NCBI RefSeq assembly: GCF_025751435.1
Contig: NZ_JAOWKY010000002.1
Location: 434,001-498,000, forward strand
Source: Albidovulum marisflavi
Lineage (GTDB): Bacteria > Pseudomonadota > Alphaproteobacteria > Rhodobacterales > Rhodobacteraceae
Length of the DNA: 64,000 nt
Reading direction: 5' to 3'
Each line of letters starts with the position of its first letter. Position 1 is the first letter of the stretch. The position numbers and the translations under genes were made by a program. The notes below the pieces were generated by a model. That model worked only from the letters and a program-made list of their open reading frames with translations. It did no database searches and was not told where the DNA came from. Shown here in pieces: positions 51,128 to 62,562 of the stretch.

Positions 51128-52657
51128 CTACTTCAGCCGGTCCAGCTGTTCCTGATAGGCGCGCGAAAACTCGCGCGCGAAAAGGTCGTGGAAATCGTTC
51201 TCGGCCTGATCGGAGATTTCCGCATACATCTTTTCATAGACCTCCCAGTAGCGCGCCTTCTTGCCCTTCAGGAAGTCTCCGATGCCGCCGCCGCCCTGGA
51301 TCTTTTCCTCGAGCGCCTTGGGGTCAAGCCGCTTCAGCACGCCTTTCAATGCGGCCTCCATCCCGGTCACCATCGCGACCTCGTGCGCCTTGATATCGTT
51401 CAGCGCCTGTTCGGTGGCGGCGGTGGCGGCCAGGTAACCGCGCTGCGTCGGCTTGACCATCGCCTCGACCGCCTGTTCGGGGCTGATCGAGAACTTCAGC
51501 GGGTTGTTGCCGCCCGCGCTGATCATGGTCTGGTTGATCCGGAATTCGCCCTTGATCGAGGTCCGGGTCATCAGGATTTCCCGGATCCCCTCGATCATCA
51601 GTTTCAGGACGGAGCCCATGCGGCCAAGCGTGGCGGCAAGGTCCTCGTCCTTGAGGCTCAGCTCGGCAACGCCCAGCGAGTCCAGGAACGCCCTTGCGGC
51701 CGCCGCGTCCGAAGCGTCCGGCCTCGCCGCGGGGGTCTGCGGCGCCCTGGGTTCAGCGGGCGCGACGGGCTTGGCCGGCGTCACCGGCGCCTCGGGCGGC
51801 CGCACGTCCTCCGGCGCTTCGGAAGGTTCGGGTGCGGCATCAGGAACGGACGGCGCCGCAGGTTCAGGGGGCTCTGCCGGGGCCAGGAAATCGTCGTCGA
51901 AATCCGTCACGTTCTGCGGCGGGGGCGCGGGTCTGGCGGGCGGCGCAGGCGGCGCGGCATCCTTCGGCGCGCTTGGGGCCAGGAAGTCCTCGTCCCAGTC
52001 ATCGGGGATGATCGACGCGCGCTTGGAAGGCGTGAAGGAATCCTCGATCGAAGGATTGTGATACTTCTGGGTCGGCCGGTCCCATTCCGGTTCCGGAGCG
52101 GGGGCTAGCAGATCGTCCTCGCCCAAGGGCGGAAGCAGCGGATCATCGGGTTCTTCCCGCTTCAACCCCTTGGGTCCGGTAGGCTGCGGGGTCCCCAGGA
52201 GATCGTCCAGAAAGTCGCCCTTGCCCCCTTCATGCGTATCCTCGAGCAACGCCAGCGGATCCGGCGCCTGGGTGGCGCGGCCGTGCGAAACGGGGCCTTC
52301 GCCCAGCGGATCGGGAATATGCGCCATCGGATCGCGCGGCGCCTGGCCGAAGCTGACCAGAAGCTCGTACCCGCCAAGGCTGAGGATATCCCCGTCGTTC
52401 AACGGTGTCGGTACGTTGCCAAGTGGCACCTTGCCGTAGTTCAGGAAGGTGCCGTTGGTCGAAAGGTCGATCACCACGACGTTGCCGTTATGATCCTCGA
52501 TCACGCAATGGCGCTTCGAGATCATCCGGTCCGGATCGGGCAGAACCAGGTCGTTTTCAGGCCCCCGACCAATGGTCAGGTTCGTGCCATGCATGACCAC
52601 GGGCTGCGCCTGGCCCGGCACCGTGCCTGTAGACTGGAATCTAAGCGTTACTGCCAT
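51128..52657 (-). CDS. tagH: TagH/Fha, FHA-domain T6SS regulator
   Basis: A 509-aa protein. The FHA domain (about residues 25-95) has TIGRGPENDLVLPD, ISKRHCVIE and STNGTFLN, the residues that bind phospho-Thr. A long acidic, Pro/Ala-rich linker (about 110-330) repeats DDLLAP, DEDFLAP and DDDFLAP. The C-terminal domain (about 340-509) is the T6SS-FHA type (LKLMIEGIREILMTRTSIKG, NNPLKFSISPEQAVEAM). It should read PpkA-made phosphothreonines on TssL or PpkA. Confidence 0.9.
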   Translation of the reverse strand: MAVTLRFQSTGTVPGQAQPVVMHGTNLTIGRGPENDLVLPDPDRMISKRHCVIEDHNGNVVVIDLSTNGTFLNYGKVPLGNVPTPLNDGDILSLGGYELLVSFGQAPRDPMAHIPDPLGEGPVSHGRATQAPDPLALLEDTHEGGKGDFLDDLLGTPQPTGPKGLKREEPDDPLLPPLGEDDLLAPAPEPEWDRPTQKYHNPSIEDSFTPSKRASIIPDDWDEDFLAPSAPKDAAPPAPPARPAPPPQNVTDFDDDFLAPAEPPEPAAPSVPDAAPEPSEAPEDVRPPEAPVTPAKPVAPAEPRAPQTPAARPDASDAAAARAFLDSLGVAELSLKDEDLAATLGRMGSVLKLMIEGIREILMTRTSIKGEFRINQTMISAGGNNPLKFSISPEQAVEAMVKPTQRGYLAATAATEQALNDIKAHEVAMVTGMEAALKGVLKRLDPKALEEKIQGGGGIGDFLKGKKARYWEVYEKMYAEISDQAENDFHDLFAREFSRAYQEQLDRLK

Positions 52658-52666
52658 TCTTCTATC

Positions 52667-52966
52667 TTATCCGCCCGTCAGTACCGTGAAACATCCGAGC
52701 GTTATCGGCCCGCCGCAGGCGCAATTGTCAAGCACGCGCGCGGCAGGAAGGCTGCAGATCAGCACCGTGGCTGATCCCTTGATGATCGGGTGCGGCGGCA
52801 CCGACGCAGTGTTGTCGGTCAGCCGAGCCGCCGGAAGTGAGCCGACAAGGACGGTAGGCGCGCCCGGCATCGCGATCGGCAGCGGGACCGGCAGAACCGG
52901 CGGGGGCGGAATCGACGGCGCCATGCAGCCGTGCAGGTCGGTCAGGCGTGCTTGCGGAAACCCCAT
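52667..52966 (-). CDS. PAAR-domain spike-tip protein
   Basis: A 99-aa Pro/Ala-rich protein made almost wholly of a PAAR domain, with two PAAR motifs (VGSLPAARLTDNTASV and CSLPAARVLDNCACGG). It should cap the VgrG trimer and may carry or recruit effectors. No toxin extension is present. Start follows directly on the stop of the preceding gene (TAG then ATG). Confidence 0.88.
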   Translation of the reverse strand: MGFPQARLTDLHGCMAPSIPPPPVLPVPLPIAMPGAPTVLVGSLPAARLTDNTASVPPHPIIKGSATVLICSLPAARVLDNCACGGPITLGCFTVLTGG

Positions 52967-53575
52967 CTACCCCTCCTTTGCCTTCTGCTTGCCGGGCTCG
53001 ATCCGACCATTTCCGCCACGCGCGATGTCAACCGCGCGGTCGATCACCATCTGAGTGTATTGCTCAAACTTATCAGAGTGCTTGCCCATTGCCACGATGT
53101 TCATCGCAAAAGCCGACACCTCGGACGCGCCGACCGGGCCTTGATGATGGGACAACTCGCCCGGACCAAGCGTCCCGTCGGCAAAGACGACGGCATTCGC
53201 CAGATAGACCGTGTCGTCATCCACTTCGGCCGTGTCCAGCGTCGCGCGGGCACGTTCGCAGTTCTCGGCCGTCGGCTTGAAAACCCAGGCCTCGGCCGCG
53301 GCAAGCGAGGGCGTGTTGTTCTCCGGCGCCTCGCCGATGTAGTCCCGCGCGGCCAGGCACGCCCACCAGACACGCTCGCGCGCGGGAAGCGCGACCGACA
53401 GGAGCCGGATGATGTCGACCGTGGCGCCCTCGGCCTCCAGCGTCTCGAGCACCTTCTGAACCGGGGCGCTTGCAGGCAGCGACAGCTTCGTCTGCAGCTT
53501 GGCGTTGGCCATGGCCAGCATCCGCGCGGCGGGTTCCCTGGGGATTTTCTTCAGATCTGAAAAACGTTCGCTCAT
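52967..53575 (-). CDS. T6SS-linked protein of unknown function between vgrG and PAAR genes
   Basis: A 202-aa soluble, mostly helical protein (MSERFSDLKKIPREPAARML; later ERVWWACLAARDYIGEAPEN). A charged Gly/Lys-rich tail ends the protein. I recall a family of unknown function (possibly DUF6931) with this context, but cannot confirm it. Its position between vgrG and PAAR genes suggests a spike-loading chaperone, an adaptor or a structural helper; no catalytic motif is seen. Confidence 0.75.
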   Translation of the reverse strand: MSERFSDLKKIPREPAARMLAMANAKLQTKLSLPASAPVQKVLETLEAEGATVDIIRLLSVALPARERVWWACLAARDYIGEAPENNTPSLAAAEAWVFKPTAENCERARATLDTAEVDDDTVYLANAVVFADGTLGPGELSHHQGPVGASEVSAFAMNIVAMGKHSDKFEQYTQMVIDRAVDIARGGNGRIEPGKQKAKEG

Positions 53576-55741: not shown

Positions 55742-56020
55742 TCAGCCAAGCGGCGCTTCGGTTTCAAGCAGGTGTTCGTCGCGGCGCAACCGTTCCACGA
55801 TGTCGGGGTTGATCCCCCAGAAATCGGTCATGGGCCGCCCCGCGCCGATGAAGGCGCGCAGGGTAAGGTGATCCTCGAAACGGTAGCAAATCACCGGAGT
55901 CGGGAAATATCCGCTGCCCTTGAGCATGGGCGAAAGGAACTCCTCTCCCTCGAAGAGCCAGTAGGTCTCGTTGATCCTGAGAAGGATCATCCGCGGTTCC
56001 TGTCCGTTTCCCGTCGTCAT
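55742..56020 (-). CDS. Small T6SS-linked protein of unknown function
   Basis: A 92-aa soluble protein, aromatic-rich (ETYWLFEGEEFLSPMLKGSG, then YRFEDHLTLRAFIGAGRP). The ATG at 56020 overlaps the stop of the fused sheath gene (TGATG), and a GGAGGGG inside the last codons of that gene is its ribosome binding site. A TTG one codon earlier is the alternative start. It lies between the sheath gene and vgrG, consistent with an adaptor or chaperone, but no family is recognised. Confidence 0.75.
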   Translation of the reverse strand: MTTGNGQEPRMILLRINETYWLFEGEEFLSPMLKGSGYFPTPVICYRFEDHLTLRAFIGAGRPMTDFWGINPDIVERLRRDEHLLETEAPLG

Positions 56021-59000
56021 CAAAGCCCCTCCAGCAGCGCCGCAAGCTCGGGGTCCATCTCATCCGATCCGCCGTCCGAGGCCCCCAAGTCGTCAAATCC
56101 CGCCAGCAGCGCGTCAAGGTCGTCGTCCCCCCCCTGGGACCCGTCATCCGAACCGGTATCCAGCCCAGCCAGCAGCGCGTCCAGATCATCGTCCCCGGAC
56201 GAGCCGGCATCGGCGTCCGCGTCCAGACCCGACAGCAATGAATCAAGATCGTCGTCGCCCTCGTCCTTGGGCGCGGGAATATCCATCTCAATGTCCGCGG
56301 GCCTTGCAGGCGTGCCTGGCATGGACGGTGGCGGGGTCCTTGCGGGCATCGGCACGCCGGTCCAGCGGCCGCGGATCTCGTCTCCGGCCAGAGACTGGAA
56401 CGAGCCAAGCCGGATCTCATCCCGGCCGCGGATCGACAGCACGGGCTGGAAGCCCCGTGTCACGACATGCTGGACCTTGGACGTTGTCAGGTTGCGCTCG
56501 GTATGCGGCAGCGCGACCTGATCGCCGTGCCGGTCCCTGACGTAGTGGAACGGAATGTCGCCGATCGACATCACGGACCCAAGGCTCATCTGCTTGCCAT
56601 GCTTCGACCAGCCCATGCCCAGAAGGACGGCGACAAGCAGGACCGGGTTGGCCCACAGCATGCCCGACAGACCCTCGGCCTCGGTGAACTCCTCGAAGTC
56701 GAAGGCGTCGATCGGGTCGGTCCGCTCTCCGTAGGGGCGCCTGAGCAGGAAGCGCGGTGAGGCCATGCCCAGATATGCGGCCTCTGGCAAGGCGCGCAGT
56801 TCGTCCCAGGCCTTGGCCACCAGCGGGTGCCGATCCTCCTTCGCGACCTCGAGGAAGGCGGGGGAAATTGCCGTGAAGAAGGGCGCGTCCACATGCGCCG
56901 CTGCCTGCGCTATTCGCGCCAGAAGTTCGGCATGGGGTGGCGTTTCCTCGAATGTGTAGAGGCCGAACAGGGCCGAGTACCCCCCCGGACCCTCTTCCCC
57001 CAGCGGCCGGTCGGTCAGAAGCCGAAGGAAACCGCTTTCCGACAGGTCATCCGCGGCCGCAAGATCGACCGCCAGTTCCTCGGCCGAGACGTCGTAGAGA
57101 TCGATCGTCAGCTTGACGTCGGTCTCGATCCGGCGCGCCAGGAAATCGAGTGAACGCCACAGCGCCTCGACCGACTGGAACTCCGGGTGGTGCAGGATCA
57201 GGCGCATCGCGGACGAAAGCGCGGCATCGACCGCGCTGAGCATCGCGCCAGCGTCCGGGTTAGGCGCCTCGACCACATGCGGGCCGATTATGCGCGCCAC
57301 CATGTCGTCGATCGGCGACGCCTCGGTCAATCGTCCGCCGGTATCACCGATCAGCTGCTGGAACGCACCGAGCTTGAGGTTCGCAGGCACCGCGGACCCC
57401 GAGGAGCTTCGCCGCGGCGCATGCAGGCGCTGGCCATGCGCCTCGCCCCATTTTTGAAGCTGCGCCATGGCGGCAGGCGCAAGCGAGGCGCTTTTCAGTC
57501 TCTGGCGCAGCCCCGAGATGCCCGCGAATATCTCGACATTGTCGAACAGTTCGTCCGGGTGAAGGGAATCCAGATCCGAAAGGCTTACCTTGATGCCCGC
57601 GCCGTCCTGACCGACAGGAAGGATCAGATCGGTCGCGAAGCCCTCGATCACCTCCTCGACGGTGTCGACGTCCAAGGGTATCGCCCGACGGTTCGCAAGC
57701 GCATCGCCGGGCTCGATCAGGCCGCGCGCCGCACGGCCGGTGAAATCGCCGAAGATCGCCATGCGAAAGCCTGTGCGCCGCAGCTCCTCGGGTGCCGGCC
57801 GCGGCGCAGAGATGAAGCCGTAGGGGTGCTCGACCTTCCTCGCGGTGGCGACGTCCTTCGACCCGGTGTCGCGACTTTCGGACAGATCTGGCATATCTTC
57901 CCCACCTTCGTCCCCGGATGTGTCTGCCTCTTCGCCCGCCGCATCCTCGTCCGCATCCACGTCCGCCAGAAGCGCGTCCAGATCGGTGTCCGCGTCCGTT
58001 TCTTCGTCACCGGCGAGCAATGCATCAAGGTCGGAGCTGTCTTCCCCGTCGCCGGCCAGAAGCGCATCCAGATCGGATAAATCGGTCTCGTCATCCGCCG
58101 GGTCATCGGCCAGCAGCGTGTCGAGATCCGCATCGGCGGCGGCGTCCCCTGACAGCAAAGTATCCAGGTCGGTGTCAGTGTCGTCGGATCCGTTATCCGC
58201 CAGAAGCGCGTCGAGGTCCGACGCAGCGTCGTCGTCACCTGCCAGCAAAGTATCCAGATCAGTGTCAGCGTCGTCCGAGCCATCGCCAGACAGCAACGCG
58301 TCAAGGTCAGCGCTGTCACCATCATCCGACAGCAAAGCATCAAGGTCGGGGTCAGCGTCGCCCCCCGACAGTACCGCGTCGAGGTCCGCGTCGGCAGCCC
58401 CGTCACCCGCCAACAAAGTATCCAGATCAGTGTCAGCGTCGTCCGTGCCATCGCCAGACAGCAACGCGTCAAGGTCAGCGCTGTCACCATCATCCGACAG
58501 CAAGGCATCAAGGTCGGGTTCAGCGTCGCCCCCCGACAGTACCGCGTCGAGGTCCGCGTCGGCAGCCCCGTCACCCGCCAGCAAAGTATCCAGTTCACTG
58601 TCAGCGTCGTCAGAGCCATCGCCAGACAGCAACGCGTCAAGGTCAGCGCTGTCACCATCATCCGACAGCAAAGCATCAAGGTCGGTGTCGGTGTCCTCTA
58701 CCGCAGCGACCGTCAGAGCCTCATCCAGACCCACGACACCTTCCTCCGGTTCGCCCTGCAGGTCGGCCAGAAGATCGGCAAGATCATCGTCGGCGCCATC
58801 ACCGGCAGGCGCTTGGTCAAGATCGGAGTCCGCAAGGGCCGCCAGCACGCTCTCGGAAGTATCCGCTTCCCCTTCAGGGGCGTCATCCTGTTCGATGTGC
58901 AGCCCACCCAGGATGTCCGCGATATCGTCGTCGCCGTTCGGCGCATCATCGCCCACGGTCCCTGCCATGCCCGACAGCAGGTCATCCAGGTCCGCTTCCG

Positions 59001-60669
59001 CCGCAGTTTCATCCGAAGCCGTCTGAGCCAGAGCAGAAAGAACCTCATCGTCGAGGTCTTGGTCGGGTTCGTCGTCCCCGGCGAGGGTGGCCATATCCGT
59101 CAGCACGGCATCATCCGCATCGTCCTGCACGACCTCATCCGGCGCGACAGCGGCCAGACCGCCCAGAATGTCGTCCGTGCCGTCACGCTCTGCCACGTCG
59201 ACCGGCGCGGCGTCCGCAAGCCCGGAAAGAATGTCGGCGGTGTCGTCGGCCTCTGGTGTGTCGGCTTCGTCCGTCGCAAGCCCGGCAAGGACGCCGTCGA
59301 CGTCCTCCGGCTGGGCCTCGTCAACCGGCAGGTCGCGCAGCGATCCGAGGATATCCGCAGCCTGATCTGCCTCGGGCGCGCCATCGCCCGCGACAGCGGC
59401 CAGACCGCCCAGAATGTCGTCCGTGCCGTCACGCTCTGCCACGTCAACCGGCGCGGCGTCCGCAAGCCCGGAAAGAATGTCGGCGGTGTCGTCGGCCTCT
59501 GGTGTGTCGGCTTCGTCCGTCGCAAGCCCGGCAAGGACGCCGTCGACGTCCTCCGGCTGGGCCTCGTCGACCGGCAGGTCGCGCAGCGATCCGAGGATAT
59601 CCGCGGTCTGATCTGCCCCGGGCGCGTCATCGCCCGCGACAGCGGCCAGACCGCCCAGAATGTCGTCCGTGCCGTCAGGCTCTGCCACGTCAACCGGCGC
59701 GGCGTCCGCAAGCCCGGAAAGAATGTCGGCGGTATCGTCGGCCTCTGGTGTGTCGGCTTCGTCCGTCGCAAGACCAGCAAGGACGCCGTCGACGTCCTCC
59801 GGCTCCGCCTCGTCAACCGGCAGGTCGCGCAGCGATCCGAGGATATCCGCGGCCTGATCTGCCTCGGGCGCGTCATCGCCCGCGACAGCGGCCAGACCGC
59901 CCAGAATGTCGTCCGTGCCGTCAGGCTCTGCCACGTCAACCGGCGCGGCGTCCGCAAGCCCGGAAAGAATGTCGGCGGTATCGTCGGCCTCTGGTTCTTC
60001 TGCAGGAGCTGCCTCGCGCAGCGCGGCGAGCGCGTCATCGGCCCCGTCCGGCGCCTCTTCTGCCTGCGGAGCCGCGTCGCGAAGCGCTGCGAGCACACCG
60101 CTTGCCGCATCATCATGCTGCGCTTCATCAGGGGCGCGCCGCCGCATGGCGTCCAGCACTGCATCCCCACCCGAACCATCCGCGGGCGCCGCGTTGGCCA
60201 GCGCGGCCAAGAGCGTCGGATCCGTGAGAAGCTTTTCAATGAGCGATTCCGCGCCCGCCTTTCCGTCCATGTAGGTCAGAAGGTTTTGCAGCTGCGTTCG
60301 CGCCTCCAGCAGGGCGCGCAAGGGTTCCACCTTGGCCGCGACGGCGGCAGGGGAAAAATCCTGCATGCTCTCGAATGTCAAATCGACCGGAAGGTTGCCT
60401 TCACCGGTCAGCGTGTTCGCCACCGCAAAGCTCGCGCGCGGCGCCATCGCGCGCATCCGCTCGTCGAAGTTGTCGATGTCGATCTCAAGAAACTTGCGGT
60501 CGCCCACAGCCGGCTGAGGCACCGACGACTTGCCGGCAAGATCGGACAGGACCCCCATGACGAAGGGCAACTGCACCTTCTTTTCGGAGCCGTAAAGCTC
60601 CACGTCGTATTCGATCTGCACGCGCGGAGCGCGGTTTCGGGCGATGAATTTCTGCGATCCGCTAGCCAT
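56020..60669 (-). CDS. Fused T6SS sheath protein: TssB-like module, long acidic repeat linker, TssC-like module
   Basis: A 1549-aa protein. Residues 1-165 match TssB (RAPRVQIEYDVELYGSEKKV, RKFLEIDIDNFDERM, FESMQDFSPAAV, LRALLEARTQLQNLLTYMDG). Residues about 170-942 are an Asp/Ala/Leu linker of repeated short D-[LIV]-x-x-[LV]-L-like motifs. Residues about 943-1440 match TssC (LHHPEFQSVEALWRSLDFL near 1160; DAPFFTAISPAFL; YLGMASPRFLLRRPYGE). The usual TssC C-terminal region is not seen; instead a second acidic tail with DDLDALLAGLD repeats ends the protein. TssB and TssC normally are separate genes. Agrobacterium has an extra TssC paralogue, so this may be an accessory sheath-like protein rather than the only sheath. 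Confidence 0.85.
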   Translation of the reverse strand: MASGSQKFIARNRAPRVQIEYDVELYGSEKKVQLPFVMGVLSDLAGKSSVPQPAVGDRKFLEIDIDNFDERMRAMAPRASFAVANTLTGEGNLPVDLTFESMQDFSPAAVAAKVEPLRALLEARTQLQNLLTYMDGKAGAESLIEKLLTDPTLLAALANAAPADGSGGDAVLDAMRRRAPDEAQHDDAASGVLAALRDAAPQAEEAPDGADDALAALREAAPAEEPEADDTADILSGLADAAPVDVAEPDGTDDILGGLAAVAGDDAPEADQAADILGSLRDLPVDEAEPEDVDGVLAGLATDEADTPEADDTADILSGLADAAPVDVAEPDGTDDILGGLAAVAGDDAPGADQTADILGSLRDLPVDEAQPEDVDGVLAGLATDEADTPEADDTADILSGLADAAPVDVAERDGTDDILGGLAAVAGDGAPEADQAADILGSLRDLPVDEAQPEDVDGVLAGLATDEADTPEADDTADILSGLADAAPVDVAERDGTDDILGGLAAVAPDEVVQDDADDAVLTDMATLAGDDEPDQDLDDEVLSALAQTASDETAAEADLDDLLSGMAGTVGDDAPNGDDDIADILGGLHIEQDDAPEGEADTSESVLAALADSDLDQAPAGDGADDDLADLLADLQGEPEEGVVGLDEALTVAAVEDTDTDLDALLSDDGDSADLDALLSGDGSDDADSELDTLLAGDGAADADLDAVLSGGDAEPDLDALLSDDGDSADLDALLSGDGTDDADTDLDTLLAGDGAADADLDAVLSGGDADPDLDALLSDDGDSADLDALLSGDGSDDADTDLDTLLAGDDDAASDLDALLADNGSDDTDTDLDTLLSGDAAADADLDTLLADDPADDETDLSDLDALLAGDGEDSSDLDALLAGDEETDADTDLDALLADVDADEDAAGEEADTSGDEGGEDMPDLSESRDTGSKDVATARKVEHPYGFISAPRPAPEELRRTGFRMAIFGDFTGRAARGLIEPGDALANRRAIPLDVDTVEEVIEGFATDLILPVGQDGAGIKVSLSDLDSLHPDELFDNVEIFAGISGLRQRLKSASLAPAAMAQLQKWGEAHGQRLHAPRRSSSGSAVPANLKLGAFQQLIGDTGGRLTEASPIDDMVARIIGPHVVEAPNPDAGAMLSAVDAALSSAMRLILHHPEFQSVEALWRSLDFLARRIETDVKLTIDLYDVSAEELAVDLAAADDLSESGFLRLLTDRPLGEEGPGGYSALFGLYTFEETPPHAELLARIAQAAAHVDAPFFTAISPAFLEVAKEDRHPLVAKAWDELRALPEAAYLGMASPRFLLRRPYGERTDPIDAFDFEEFTEAEGLSGMLWANPVLLVAVLLGMGWSKHGKQMSLGSVMSIGDIPFHYVRDRHGDQVALPHTERNLTTSKVQHVVTRGFQPVLSIRGRDEIRLGSFQSLAGDEIRGRWTGVPMPARTPPPSMPGTPARPADIEMDIPAPKDEGDDDLDSLLSGLDADADAGSSGDDDLDALLAGLDTGSDDGSQGGDDDLDALLAGFDDLGASDGGSDEMDPELAALLEGL
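58230..58685. repeat. 168-bp coding tandem repeat in the sheath-fusion linker
   Basis: Nearly identical units begin at 58281, 58449 and 58617 (period 168 bp, 56 codons), with similarity extending left to about 58230 and ending at 58685. Each unit encodes four or five copies of DLDALL/DLDTLL/DLDAVL spaced by acidic Gly/Asp/Ala spacers. Near identity at the DNA level implies recent duplication or gene conversion. Confidence 0.88.
59144..59993. repeat. 246-bp coding tandem repeat in the sheath-fusion linker
   Basis: Units at 59144-59389, 59390-59635, 59636-59881 and a partial one at 59882-59993 have a period of 246 bp (82 codons) and very few differences. Each 82-aa unit is itself four sub-repeats of about 20 residues (TADILSGLADAAP, TDDILGGLAAVAG, AADILGSLRDLP, VDGVLAGLATDEA). 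Confidence 0.92.
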
Positions 60670-61522
60670 CGGTTCGCCCCCTGAGTCCCGCGATCTCGCG
60701 CCGGAGCGCGCTGATCTCGTCCTTCAGCTCAAGAACATGCGCATCGACCTGGTCGGTTTCGCTGCGCACAAGCTCGCGCAGAACCTCGAACTCCTGCTGT
60801 TCCTCCGCTTCCACCGCGCTTTGCATGGTGTTGACCAGCAGGCCGATGAAGAGGTTGAGGACGGAGAACGCGGTGATGATGATGAAGGGCACGAAAAAGG
60901 CCCAGGCGTAGGGGAATTCCTCCATCACGGGGCGCACGATGCCCATCGACCAGCTTTCCAGAGTCATGATCTGGAAGAGCGAGTAGAGCGAGCGCCCGAG
61001 CGTGCCAAACCATTCGTCGAACGCCGCGCCGAAGATGATCGTCGCCATGACCCCGAAGACGTAATAGACGATCCCCAGCATGATGATGACCGCGCCCATG
61101 CCGGGCAACGCATCGAAAAGCGCCTGAACGACGGCGCGCATCTGCGGAACGATCGACAGCAGTCGCAGAGCGCGGATGACGCGCAGCGCACGAAGGGCGG
61201 ACAGGCTTTCCGTCGCTGGCAGCAAGCCGACCGTCACGACCGCAAGGTCGAAGATGTTCCAGGCGGACCGGAAGAAGGACAAGCGGTAGGCAAAGAACTT
61301 CATCCCCAGTTCAAGGACGAAGATTGTCAGCACAAGGTTGTCGATCAGTGGCAGCGCGCCGCCCAGGTGGGCCTTGGCCCACTGAGTGGTGGATATGCCA
61401 AGCGTGATCGCGTTGAAGATGATGACGGCAAGGATCGCGTTGCGGACGCTTTCGCGCTCGACGAACTCCCTCACCGCATCCCTTAGCGACCTTTCGTGAC
61501 TTACGACACCGTTGCCTGCCAT
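60662..61522 (-). CDS. Bacterial voltage-gated sodium channel (NaChBac/NavAb-like) inside the T6SS operon
   Basis: A 286-aa six-helix channel. S4 carries Arg111, 114, 117 and 120 at every third position. The pore loop has TLESWS (187-192), the selectivity filter of bacterial Na+ channels. S6 is IITAFSVLNLFIGLLVNTM, followed by a C-terminal coiled coil (about 245-283). It should form a homotetrameric voltage-gated Na+ channel in the inner membrane. It overlaps the start of the sheath fusion by 8 bases and follows the Lys-rich coiled-coil gene, so it is co-transcribed with T6SS genes. Confidence 0.9.
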   Translation of the reverse strand: MAGNGVVSHERSLRDAVREFVERESVRNAILAVIIFNAITLGISTTQWAKAHLGGALPLIDNLVLTIFVLELGMKFFAYRLSFFRSAWNIFDLAVVTVGLLPATESLSALRALRVIRALRLLSIVPQMRAVVQALFDALPGMGAVIIMLGIVYYVFGVMATIIFGAAFDEWFGTLGRSLYSLFQIMTLESWSMGIVRPVMEEFPYAWAFFVPFIIITAFSVLNLFIGLLVNTMQSAVEAEEQQEFEVLRELVRSETDQVDAHVLELKDEISALRREIAGLRGRTDG

Positions 61523-61560: not shown

Positions 61561-62562
61561 TTAACCAAGTTTCCCTTCGACCCGCTTGAAATGCGCGGCC
61601 AGATCAGCAAAGTCCTTGCGCGCCTGATCGGCCTTGCTGTCAAGACCGCCGGTCTTCCGTTCGAAGTCCTTGAGATCACTCTTGACGTTGTCGCAGTCGT
61701 CTCTGCCAGCTTCGACCTCGCCGCAGGCATCCATCAGATAATTCTCGAATTTTTCAAGCTGCTTCTGAAGCTTCCGCATCGCCGGGATCTTGCCGTCCAC
61801 GTCTTTCGCGAAACCCTCGACCTCCGGAATGTCCATCCGCTTGAGGCTCTTGCGAAGCCCTTCGAGCGCATCGACGGCCGAGATGATCTGCTTGACGTTC
61901 TTTTCGTACTTGTCCTTCACCTGCTTCATCGTTCGCGCGCAACGGGTATAGGCAGCGTCCCGGCGCTTGTCGGCAGCTTTCTGGAACGCCCGCTTCTTCT
62001 TGTCGTCCTCTTCATCCTTGCCAAGCGCCTCGTCCGCCTCGGCCTTGCCCAGTTCCTTGATCAGGGCATTGTAGGCCACGGTGAACTCACCCGCGGGGCC
62101 GCTGAAAACGCCCTTGAGCGAAACGGAAGAGATTTCCCGAACGAATTCCAGCCCTTCCTTCAGGAATTTCTTCTCCTCCGCGGCGCCCTGGTTCTTGAGC
62201 TCCTCAAGCGCCTTCTTGCACTTCTTCTTGATCAGCTTCTTGGTGTCCTTGAGCGCGGCATCAAGATCCTTGTCGATGATCTTCTTCAGCTTGTCGGGCG
62301 ACTTCTCCGCCTCCTTCTGCGCATTGCCGACCGCCGAGGCGAGGTACTTCAGTTCGTAGACGACAAGGCCCTCAAGGGCCTTGGCCAGCTTCTTTTCGCT
62401 CCATTTCGAGTCATCAAGCTCAAGCGACTCGGAATGCTCGAGGGGTTCCTTGAAAAGCTTTGCAAGATCCGGGTTCGACTTGATCCAGTCCTTCGACTTC
62501 TTGGTGAACTCGGAGCTTGGGCTGATCTTCAGCTCCGCCACCATCATCTTCTTGCCTGCCAT
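61561..62562 (-). CDS. Lys-rich coiled-coil protein of unknown function in the T6SS operon
   Basis: A 333-aa soluble helical protein, strongly Lys/Glu-rich with long predicted coiled coils (about 75-135 around DKDLDAALKDTKKLIKKKCK; about 180-330). It has no signal peptide, transmembrane segment or catalytic motif that I recognise. It lies between clpV and the Na+ channel gene. The basic stretches could pair with the acidic linker of the sheath fusion, but that is speculation. Effector, scaffold and chaperone roles all remain open. Confidence 0.78.
   Translation of the reverse strand: MAGKKMMVAELKISPSSEFTKKSKDWIKSNPDLAKLFKEPLEHSESLELDDSKWSEKKLAKALEGLVVYELKYLASAVGNAQKEAEKSPDKLKKIIDKDLDAALKDTKKLIKKKCKKALEELKNQGAAEEKKFLKEGLEFVREISSVSLKGVFSGPAGEFTVAYNALIKELGKAEADEALGKDEEDDKKKRAFQKAADKRRDAAYTRCARTMKQVKDKYEKNVKQIISAVDALEGLRKSLKRMDIPEVEGFAKDVDGKIPAMRKLQKQLEKFENYLMDACGEVEAGRDDCDNVKSDLKDFERKTGGLDSKADQARKDFADLAAHFKRVEGKLG

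Follow-up and report, generated by a model that had tools for sequence, protein, structure and literature searches.

A fusion between the type VI secretion system (T6SS) proteins TssB and TssC was described in 2022 in roseobacters as TssCL. According to that paper (PMC9515649), the TssCL protein of Leisingera sp. ANG-M7 comprises 1684 amino acids (aa), with two VipA domains and one VipB domain, and the fusion is explained by the formation of TssB-TssC dimers. Here we examine a gene for a protein of this kind in a 64,000-nucleotide stretch of Albidovulum marisflavi DNA (G000:C3:434001-498000, hereafter the window), whose nearest named relatives are Defluviimonas. Its product is 1549 aa long and has the same domains; compared with the system presented in PMC9515649, its T6SS cluster is of matching type and again contains tssB and tssC as separate genes, and we find no difference in kind. 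The fusion protein is the TssCL protein of a TagJ-containing T6SS. Thus, the fusion as such is not new and belongs to a class already in print, contrary to a preliminary description of the window that took it to be undescribed. What is added here is the anatomy of the TssC-like module, which has a TssB-like piece of its own and no VipB_2 domain; the variation of the linker and its periodic beat; the existence of stand-alone modules; the conserved tail; and the linkage to a channel gene. The words ion transport, channel, linker, repeat, disorder and acidic do not appear anywhere in the main text of PMC9515649, its sections 12 and 13 do not discuss a missing VipB_2 domain, and the words fused, fusion, Leisingera and ion channel are absent from the passages of PMC13098142 that were searched. 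Neither the gene linkage nor the added anatomical facts were found in print; for the linkage of a channel gene to a T6SS this absence is weak, since the search of the channel literature was shallow.

The gene and its parts are as follows.
56020..60669, minus strand: TssCL-type fusion gene, 1549 aa, an uninterrupted single open reading frame (ORF) with homologous fusions in relatives
60190..60669, minus strand: intact TssB moiety, aa 1-160, from the match to Pfam PF05591 at aa 10-160
57835..60189, minus strand: acidic low-complexity linker, about aa 161-945, with a hydrophobic beat of ~21 residues and DNA repeats
57490..57768, minus strand: second, partial TssB (VipA)-like stretch, aa 968-1060, belonging to the module, from a profile match
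56389..57243, minus strand: VipB part of the module, like the TssC N-terminal domain, aa 1143-1427, with no VipB_2 after it, from Pfam
56023..56283, minus strand: acidic C-terminal tail, aa 1463-1549, from conserved columns, predicted helices and motif counts

That is, one frame encodes an intact TssB, about 785 acidic residues and a TssC-like module, as the ORF and the Pfam matches confirm for the preliminary description, and an acidic tail comes after them. The preliminary description needs correcting in two respects, the additional TssB-like stretch ahead of the TssC-like part and the incompleteness of that part. A Pfam scan scores T6SS_VipA/TssB (PF05591) at 207.6 bits over the whole protein and VipB (PF05943) at 150 bits. 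Profile searches of both ends, which had been proposed as a check, gave a divided result. At the TssB end the protein passes the NCBIfam model TIGR03358 (202.2, cut-off 97.25), and aa 1-160 hold a full VipA domain, as a canonical TssB does. At the other end VipB is matched, but the TssC model TIGR03355 is not reached (136.9, cut-off 271.5) and VipB_2 is missing, so that the module lacks both marks of a canonical TssC. The chain as a whole carries the two VipA domains and one VipB domain of TssCL; the second VipA scores 25.2 bits, above the cut-off, and 22.7 against a cut-off of 24, slightly below, when the module is scanned alone. The accessory genes that accompany TssCL are likewise found in the cluster, namely PAAR (52667-52966), FHA and ImpE/tagJ (PF07024).

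The TssB-like stretch of the module lies at module positions 39-131, ahead of the VipB part, and the module is 29% identical to the TssC of the same genome, which has both VipB and VipB_2. The latter, a gpW/gp25-like C-terminal domain, is absent from 69/69 modules scanned, including that of the window. Thus, the module shares with canonical TssC/VipB the N-terminal VipB domain and differs from it in lacking VipB_2 and in having its own TssB-like piece and an acidic tail. Because it has this piece and lacks VipB_2, it looks like the outer portion of a protomer of the sheath, a single-chain 'pseudo-protomer' made of a TssB-like piece and a TssC N-terminal domain, and it probably cannot polymerise. 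The second TssC of Rhizobium tumorigenes (TssC40 position, L163:5971-7356) is different: it has VipB and VipB_2, passes the TssC cut-off and gives no TssB-like match. On this one protein, domain content rules out that the module is TssC40/ImpD, and the parallel once drawn with the second TssC of Agrobacterium fails. A stand-alone betaproteobacterial homologue from Eleftheria terrae (L161:11956-13734) likewise has the TssB-like piece, a VipB that no VipB_2 follows, and a C-terminal tail of similar kind; unlike the window protein it has no TssB moiety and no long linker.

The tail itself is conserved. Several of its columns are invariant or nearly so among 69 sequences, and two short helices are predicted in the window protein with modest confidence, DDLDALLA (56101-56124) and PELAALLEG (56026-56052), with values of the predicted local distance difference test (pLDDT) per block of 51-58 and 71. 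We compared named-genome loci, the best 80 of 513 relatives: an LDxLL-type motif occurs in the tail in 62/80, and the C-terminal pattern fits 62/80 in its strict form and 73/80 in a looser one. Two distant stand-alone proteins, L166 and L168, have no tail (L167 was not in the comparison).

The fusion protein is real, conserved and odd. TssB lies in frame with the module in 59 of the 80 named loci (57 complete and 2 cut at the left), so the search of related genomes called for by the preliminary description found the same fusion and disfavoured a frameshift or misjoin. Of the other loci, 9 run into a contig end before a TssB is reached, 11 are complete without TssB and one is split (L131, a draft contig with TssB and module in different frames). 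In a sample of 149 genomes of the family, 15, the window's own included, carry the module at at least 48% identity, and 20 further genomes have only TssC matches, at 23-34% identity. TssB, linker and module share one open frame in 10 of these 15; in two the contig breaks off within the linker and a TssB frame lies on another contig, and three have the module alone and a single TssB. Across the order (244 genomes), 25 genomes including the window's own have a match at E<=1e-60, of which 23 score at least 727 bits and two about 215 bits. One genome besides the window's own passes among 385 of the class, and two among 398 of the phylum, with open frames of 479-530 aa. In a module tree of 81 rows built by a quick method, with L135 left out and the split L131 counted as alone, the fused or alone state requires seven changes, which indicates that the fusion was lost (or gained) repeatedly. 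In 10/10 plasmid records compared, from a gene table that is incomplete by its own description, the annotated gene starts fall after the TssB part, so the architecture is easily overlooked.

The fused TssB is a selectively constrained paralogue. It shares 77% identity with the genome's separate TssB, whose gene lies at G000:C3:505720-506199, just outside the window, as does the separate tssC; this ordinary pair, which had been suspected to exist, sits ~10 kb upstream of the fusion in the same cluster. Compared with canonical TssB/VipA, the fusion retains the full TssB at aa 1-160 and adds the giant linker and the module; ordinary TssBs are 167-174 aa long (n=15 compared). The ratio of nonsynonymous to synonymous substitution rates (dN/dS) of the window's fused TssB is 0.064 and 0.143 against its two nearest relatives, and 0.009-0.209 in the eight pairs that yielded a value, out of nine tried. 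Purifying selection on the TssB part, together with the same in-frame fusion in many genomes, rules out a frameshift or misassembly. Fused copies fall on one side of a branch in a TssB tree of 27 rows, with weak support (58/78), which would allow a single origin.

The linker joining the two ends is long, acidic and highly variable. Among 58 linkers, the window's included, the length is 76-1198 aa (median 574), with 22-42% Asp and Glu, 0.3-5% Lys and Arg, at most 1.7% aromatic residues and at most 0.2% cysteine. Hydrophobic residues recur every 20-22 positions in 49/56 linkers of at least 200 aa (p<=0.01 against shuffles), and the mean periodicity curve peaks at 21, likewise in 26 linkers of low exact redundancy. 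Parts of the window linker are underlain by tandem DNA repeats of 246 bp (59143-59995) and 168 bp (58207-58689). The repeat-built chain is probably disordered. The stop-to-stop frames of five strains of Leisingera aquaemixtae measure 1410, 1452 and three times 1490 aa, and those of four strains of L. caerulea 1546, 1634 and twice 1653 aa; the exact length of the linker would not be critical. Growth of the repeats out of TssB's own C-terminal tail is unsupported: the best TssB match of the repeat profile is residues 65-86 in 15/15 canonical TssBs.

Taken together, the stripped-down module, the very variable tether and an adjoining channel-like gene suggest that the protein regulates or tethers the sheath and is not one of its building blocks. 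The reading that we favour, with a probability of about 45% on the evidence of sequence, is that the fused TssB joins the sheath with ordinary TssC while the tethered module stabilises the sheath or recruits a partner, without being a sheath unit. Since the module's own TssB position seems to be occupied and the module has no assembly domain, the fused TssB would pair with the ordinary TssC of the same cluster and enter the sheath as a minor isoform. With such a chain, the pseudo-protomer and the conserved tail could extend along the sheath or around it, or in the direction of the membrane or baseplate, and there the pseudo-protomer might stabilise the sheath or recruit a partner without polymerising; candidate partners are TagJ/ClpV, the baseplate and the neighbouring channel. 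If TssCL stabilises sheaths, it would work like the stabilisers TagA, TagB and TagJ treated in PMC7896307; TagJ is present in the window cluster in addition to TssCL. Of the ideas in the preliminary description, a sheath-associated regulator appears the best.

Several observations weigh against this reading or limit it. Stand-alone modules make up 11/69 complete-frame loci (57 fused, 11 alone, 1 split) as well as the 3/15 of the family sample, so that the core role of the module does not depend on its being anchored by a fused TssB. In one lineage, Sulfitobacter sp. M05 (L111:7234-10683), the fused TssB has fallen to 37.5% identity, which suggests that its role there is being lost or changed. 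The beat is not significant at 0.01 in 7/56 linkers, and confidence in the two modelled tail helices is only modest. For L150, a natural fusion with a short linker, an AlphaFold model gives TssB a pLDDT of 35-66 per block and holds no docking information.

The alternative that fares best turns on the gene directly upstream of the fusion.
60662..61522, minus strand: bacterial sodium-channel-like gene (Ion_trans, filter TLESWSM) with an 8-bp overlap at the fusion start
By sequence, its product resembles a bacterial voltage-gated sodium channel: similarity extends over sensor and pore, the best PDB match among solved bacterial sodium channels covers residues 16-244 (E 2.2e-74), an entry named NavAb is among the 60 PDB matches listed, and it has the filter TLESW, which we take to be a sodium filter. 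The channel-like protein and TssCL, encoded by overlapping genes, could form one functional pair in which membrane potential or ion entry controls sheath assembly, firing or disassembly through the acidic chain. The gene adjoins the fusion or module upstream in 57/69 loci with upstream sequence, with an overlap of 4-11 bp in 49/57, and TLESWSM is present in 58/58 channel sequences, the window's included. Of the module genomes, 14/15 have a channel of at least 59% identity, against 0/20 T6SS genomes without the module, 13 of which have only channels of 46-53% identity and seven none at threshold. Linkers are also longer in fused loci with the channel (337-1198 aa, n=51) than in those without it (76-415 aa, n=6). 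However, 12/69 loci have no channel, six of them fused, and these six all belong to one clade of eight rows in the module tree; the relation between channel and linker length is thus not independent evidence. In L131, where the frame is split, the channel lies 2.7 kb from the module, and operon neighbours need not interact. We regard such a coupled sensor as possible but doubtful. Its boldest form seems to us very improbable: channel and sheath-tethered pseudo-protomer would be a co-translated cassette by which the T6SS senses membrane potential or the entry of ions and works directly on its sheath by way of the very long acidic chain, as an electrically gated contractile injection machine.

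The fusion might alternatively recruit TagJ/ClpV to the sheath or act as a decoy that holds them off, setting recycling through its TssB N-terminus and its repeated Leu-Leu motifs. TagJ (ImpE, PF07024) is encoded in the cluster; the P. aeruginosa protein TagJ/HsiE1 binds the TssB N-terminus and ClpV1, as stated in passages of PMC4239648, and TagJ1 binds short TssA, as stated in passages of PMC7896307. Across 32 aligned fused proteins, the diverged L111 left out, the N-terminal stretch QKF..RNRAPRVQIEYD is invariant at most of its residues; but the stretch is identical in the ordinary TssB of the window genome and may serve the handshake arm. A direct link to ClpV through Leu-Leu motifs is speculative, because the LLDEII motif of TssC is absent from TagJ-type systems, with one exception (same passages of PMC4239648). 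We judge a recruiter or decoy unlikely.

In the tethered unit of the preliminary description, the fused TssB and the TssC-like domain would bind one another and polymerise as a protomer contained in one chain, an explanation also given in PMC9515649. This would agree with the normal pairing of TssB and TssC and with two recognisable ends. It is nevertheless disfavoured, and we consider it very improbable: the module has its own TssB-like piece and, without exception in the 69, no VipB_2, the linker reaches 1198 aa, and normal tssB and tssC coexist with the fusion. Least probable of all is a ruler whose linker length sets sheath length, or a module that caps the growing end, for although the linker is long and its beat regular, the range of 76-1198 aa across the family and the differing frames within L. 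aquaemixtae and L. caerulea disfavour the ruler, with no bearing on the cap.

Read from upstream along the minus strand, the cluster has TssA (345 aa, ImpA_N), TssB, TssC, a protein like Hcp that scores below its NCBIfam cut-off, TagJ (ImpE), TssE, TssF, TssG and ClpV. After ClpV come a protein of unknown function, the sodium-channel-like protein, the fusion, a small ORF, VgrG, DUF6931, PAAR, FHA and TssK, followed by a DotU/OmpA protein (TssL), a TssM assigned solely from its position and size, TagF and a PP2C phosphatase. A protein kinase is encoded on the plus strand. Three of its genes are listed here.
55742..56023, minus strand: small ORF, 93 aa as listed, with its ATG at 56020, between the fusion and VgrG, with a stop/start overlap TGATG
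61561..62562, minus strand: protein of unknown function, flanked by clpV and the channel gene, with a weak phasin-like match below cut-off
52967-53575, minus strand: DUF6931 protein, inside the cluster
The small ORF has no Pfam or NCBIfam match, and a homologue is found in only part of the related loci. Relatives of the protein at 61561-62562 are very divergent and often undetectable. DUF6931 occurs in 29/35 T6SS genomes searched and in 0/14 control genomes; as a partner specific to the module it was rejected, being present in 15/15 module genomes but also in 14/20 T6SS genomes without the module (13 above cut-off). The FHA protein (51128-52657, minus strand) has a linker with acidic Leu-Leu stretches, such as GDFLDDLLG, that are reminiscent of motifs in the fusion. 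On a plasmid of Leisingera aquaemixtae M597 (L173:9914-11396) the tagH (FHA) region is annotated as several pieces; it is one gene in other strains.

If the favoured mechanism is true, the sheaths of many marine Rhodobacterales would be mixed polymers with a sheath-like domain tethered to them that does not itself polymerise, a mode of regulating contractile machines that we did not find as tested in the literature searched. In this family the length of a long acidic chain can vary greatly while its beat and its ends are mostly kept. The conserved link to a sodium-channel-like gene, in turn, makes the triggering of these machines a concrete and testable question.
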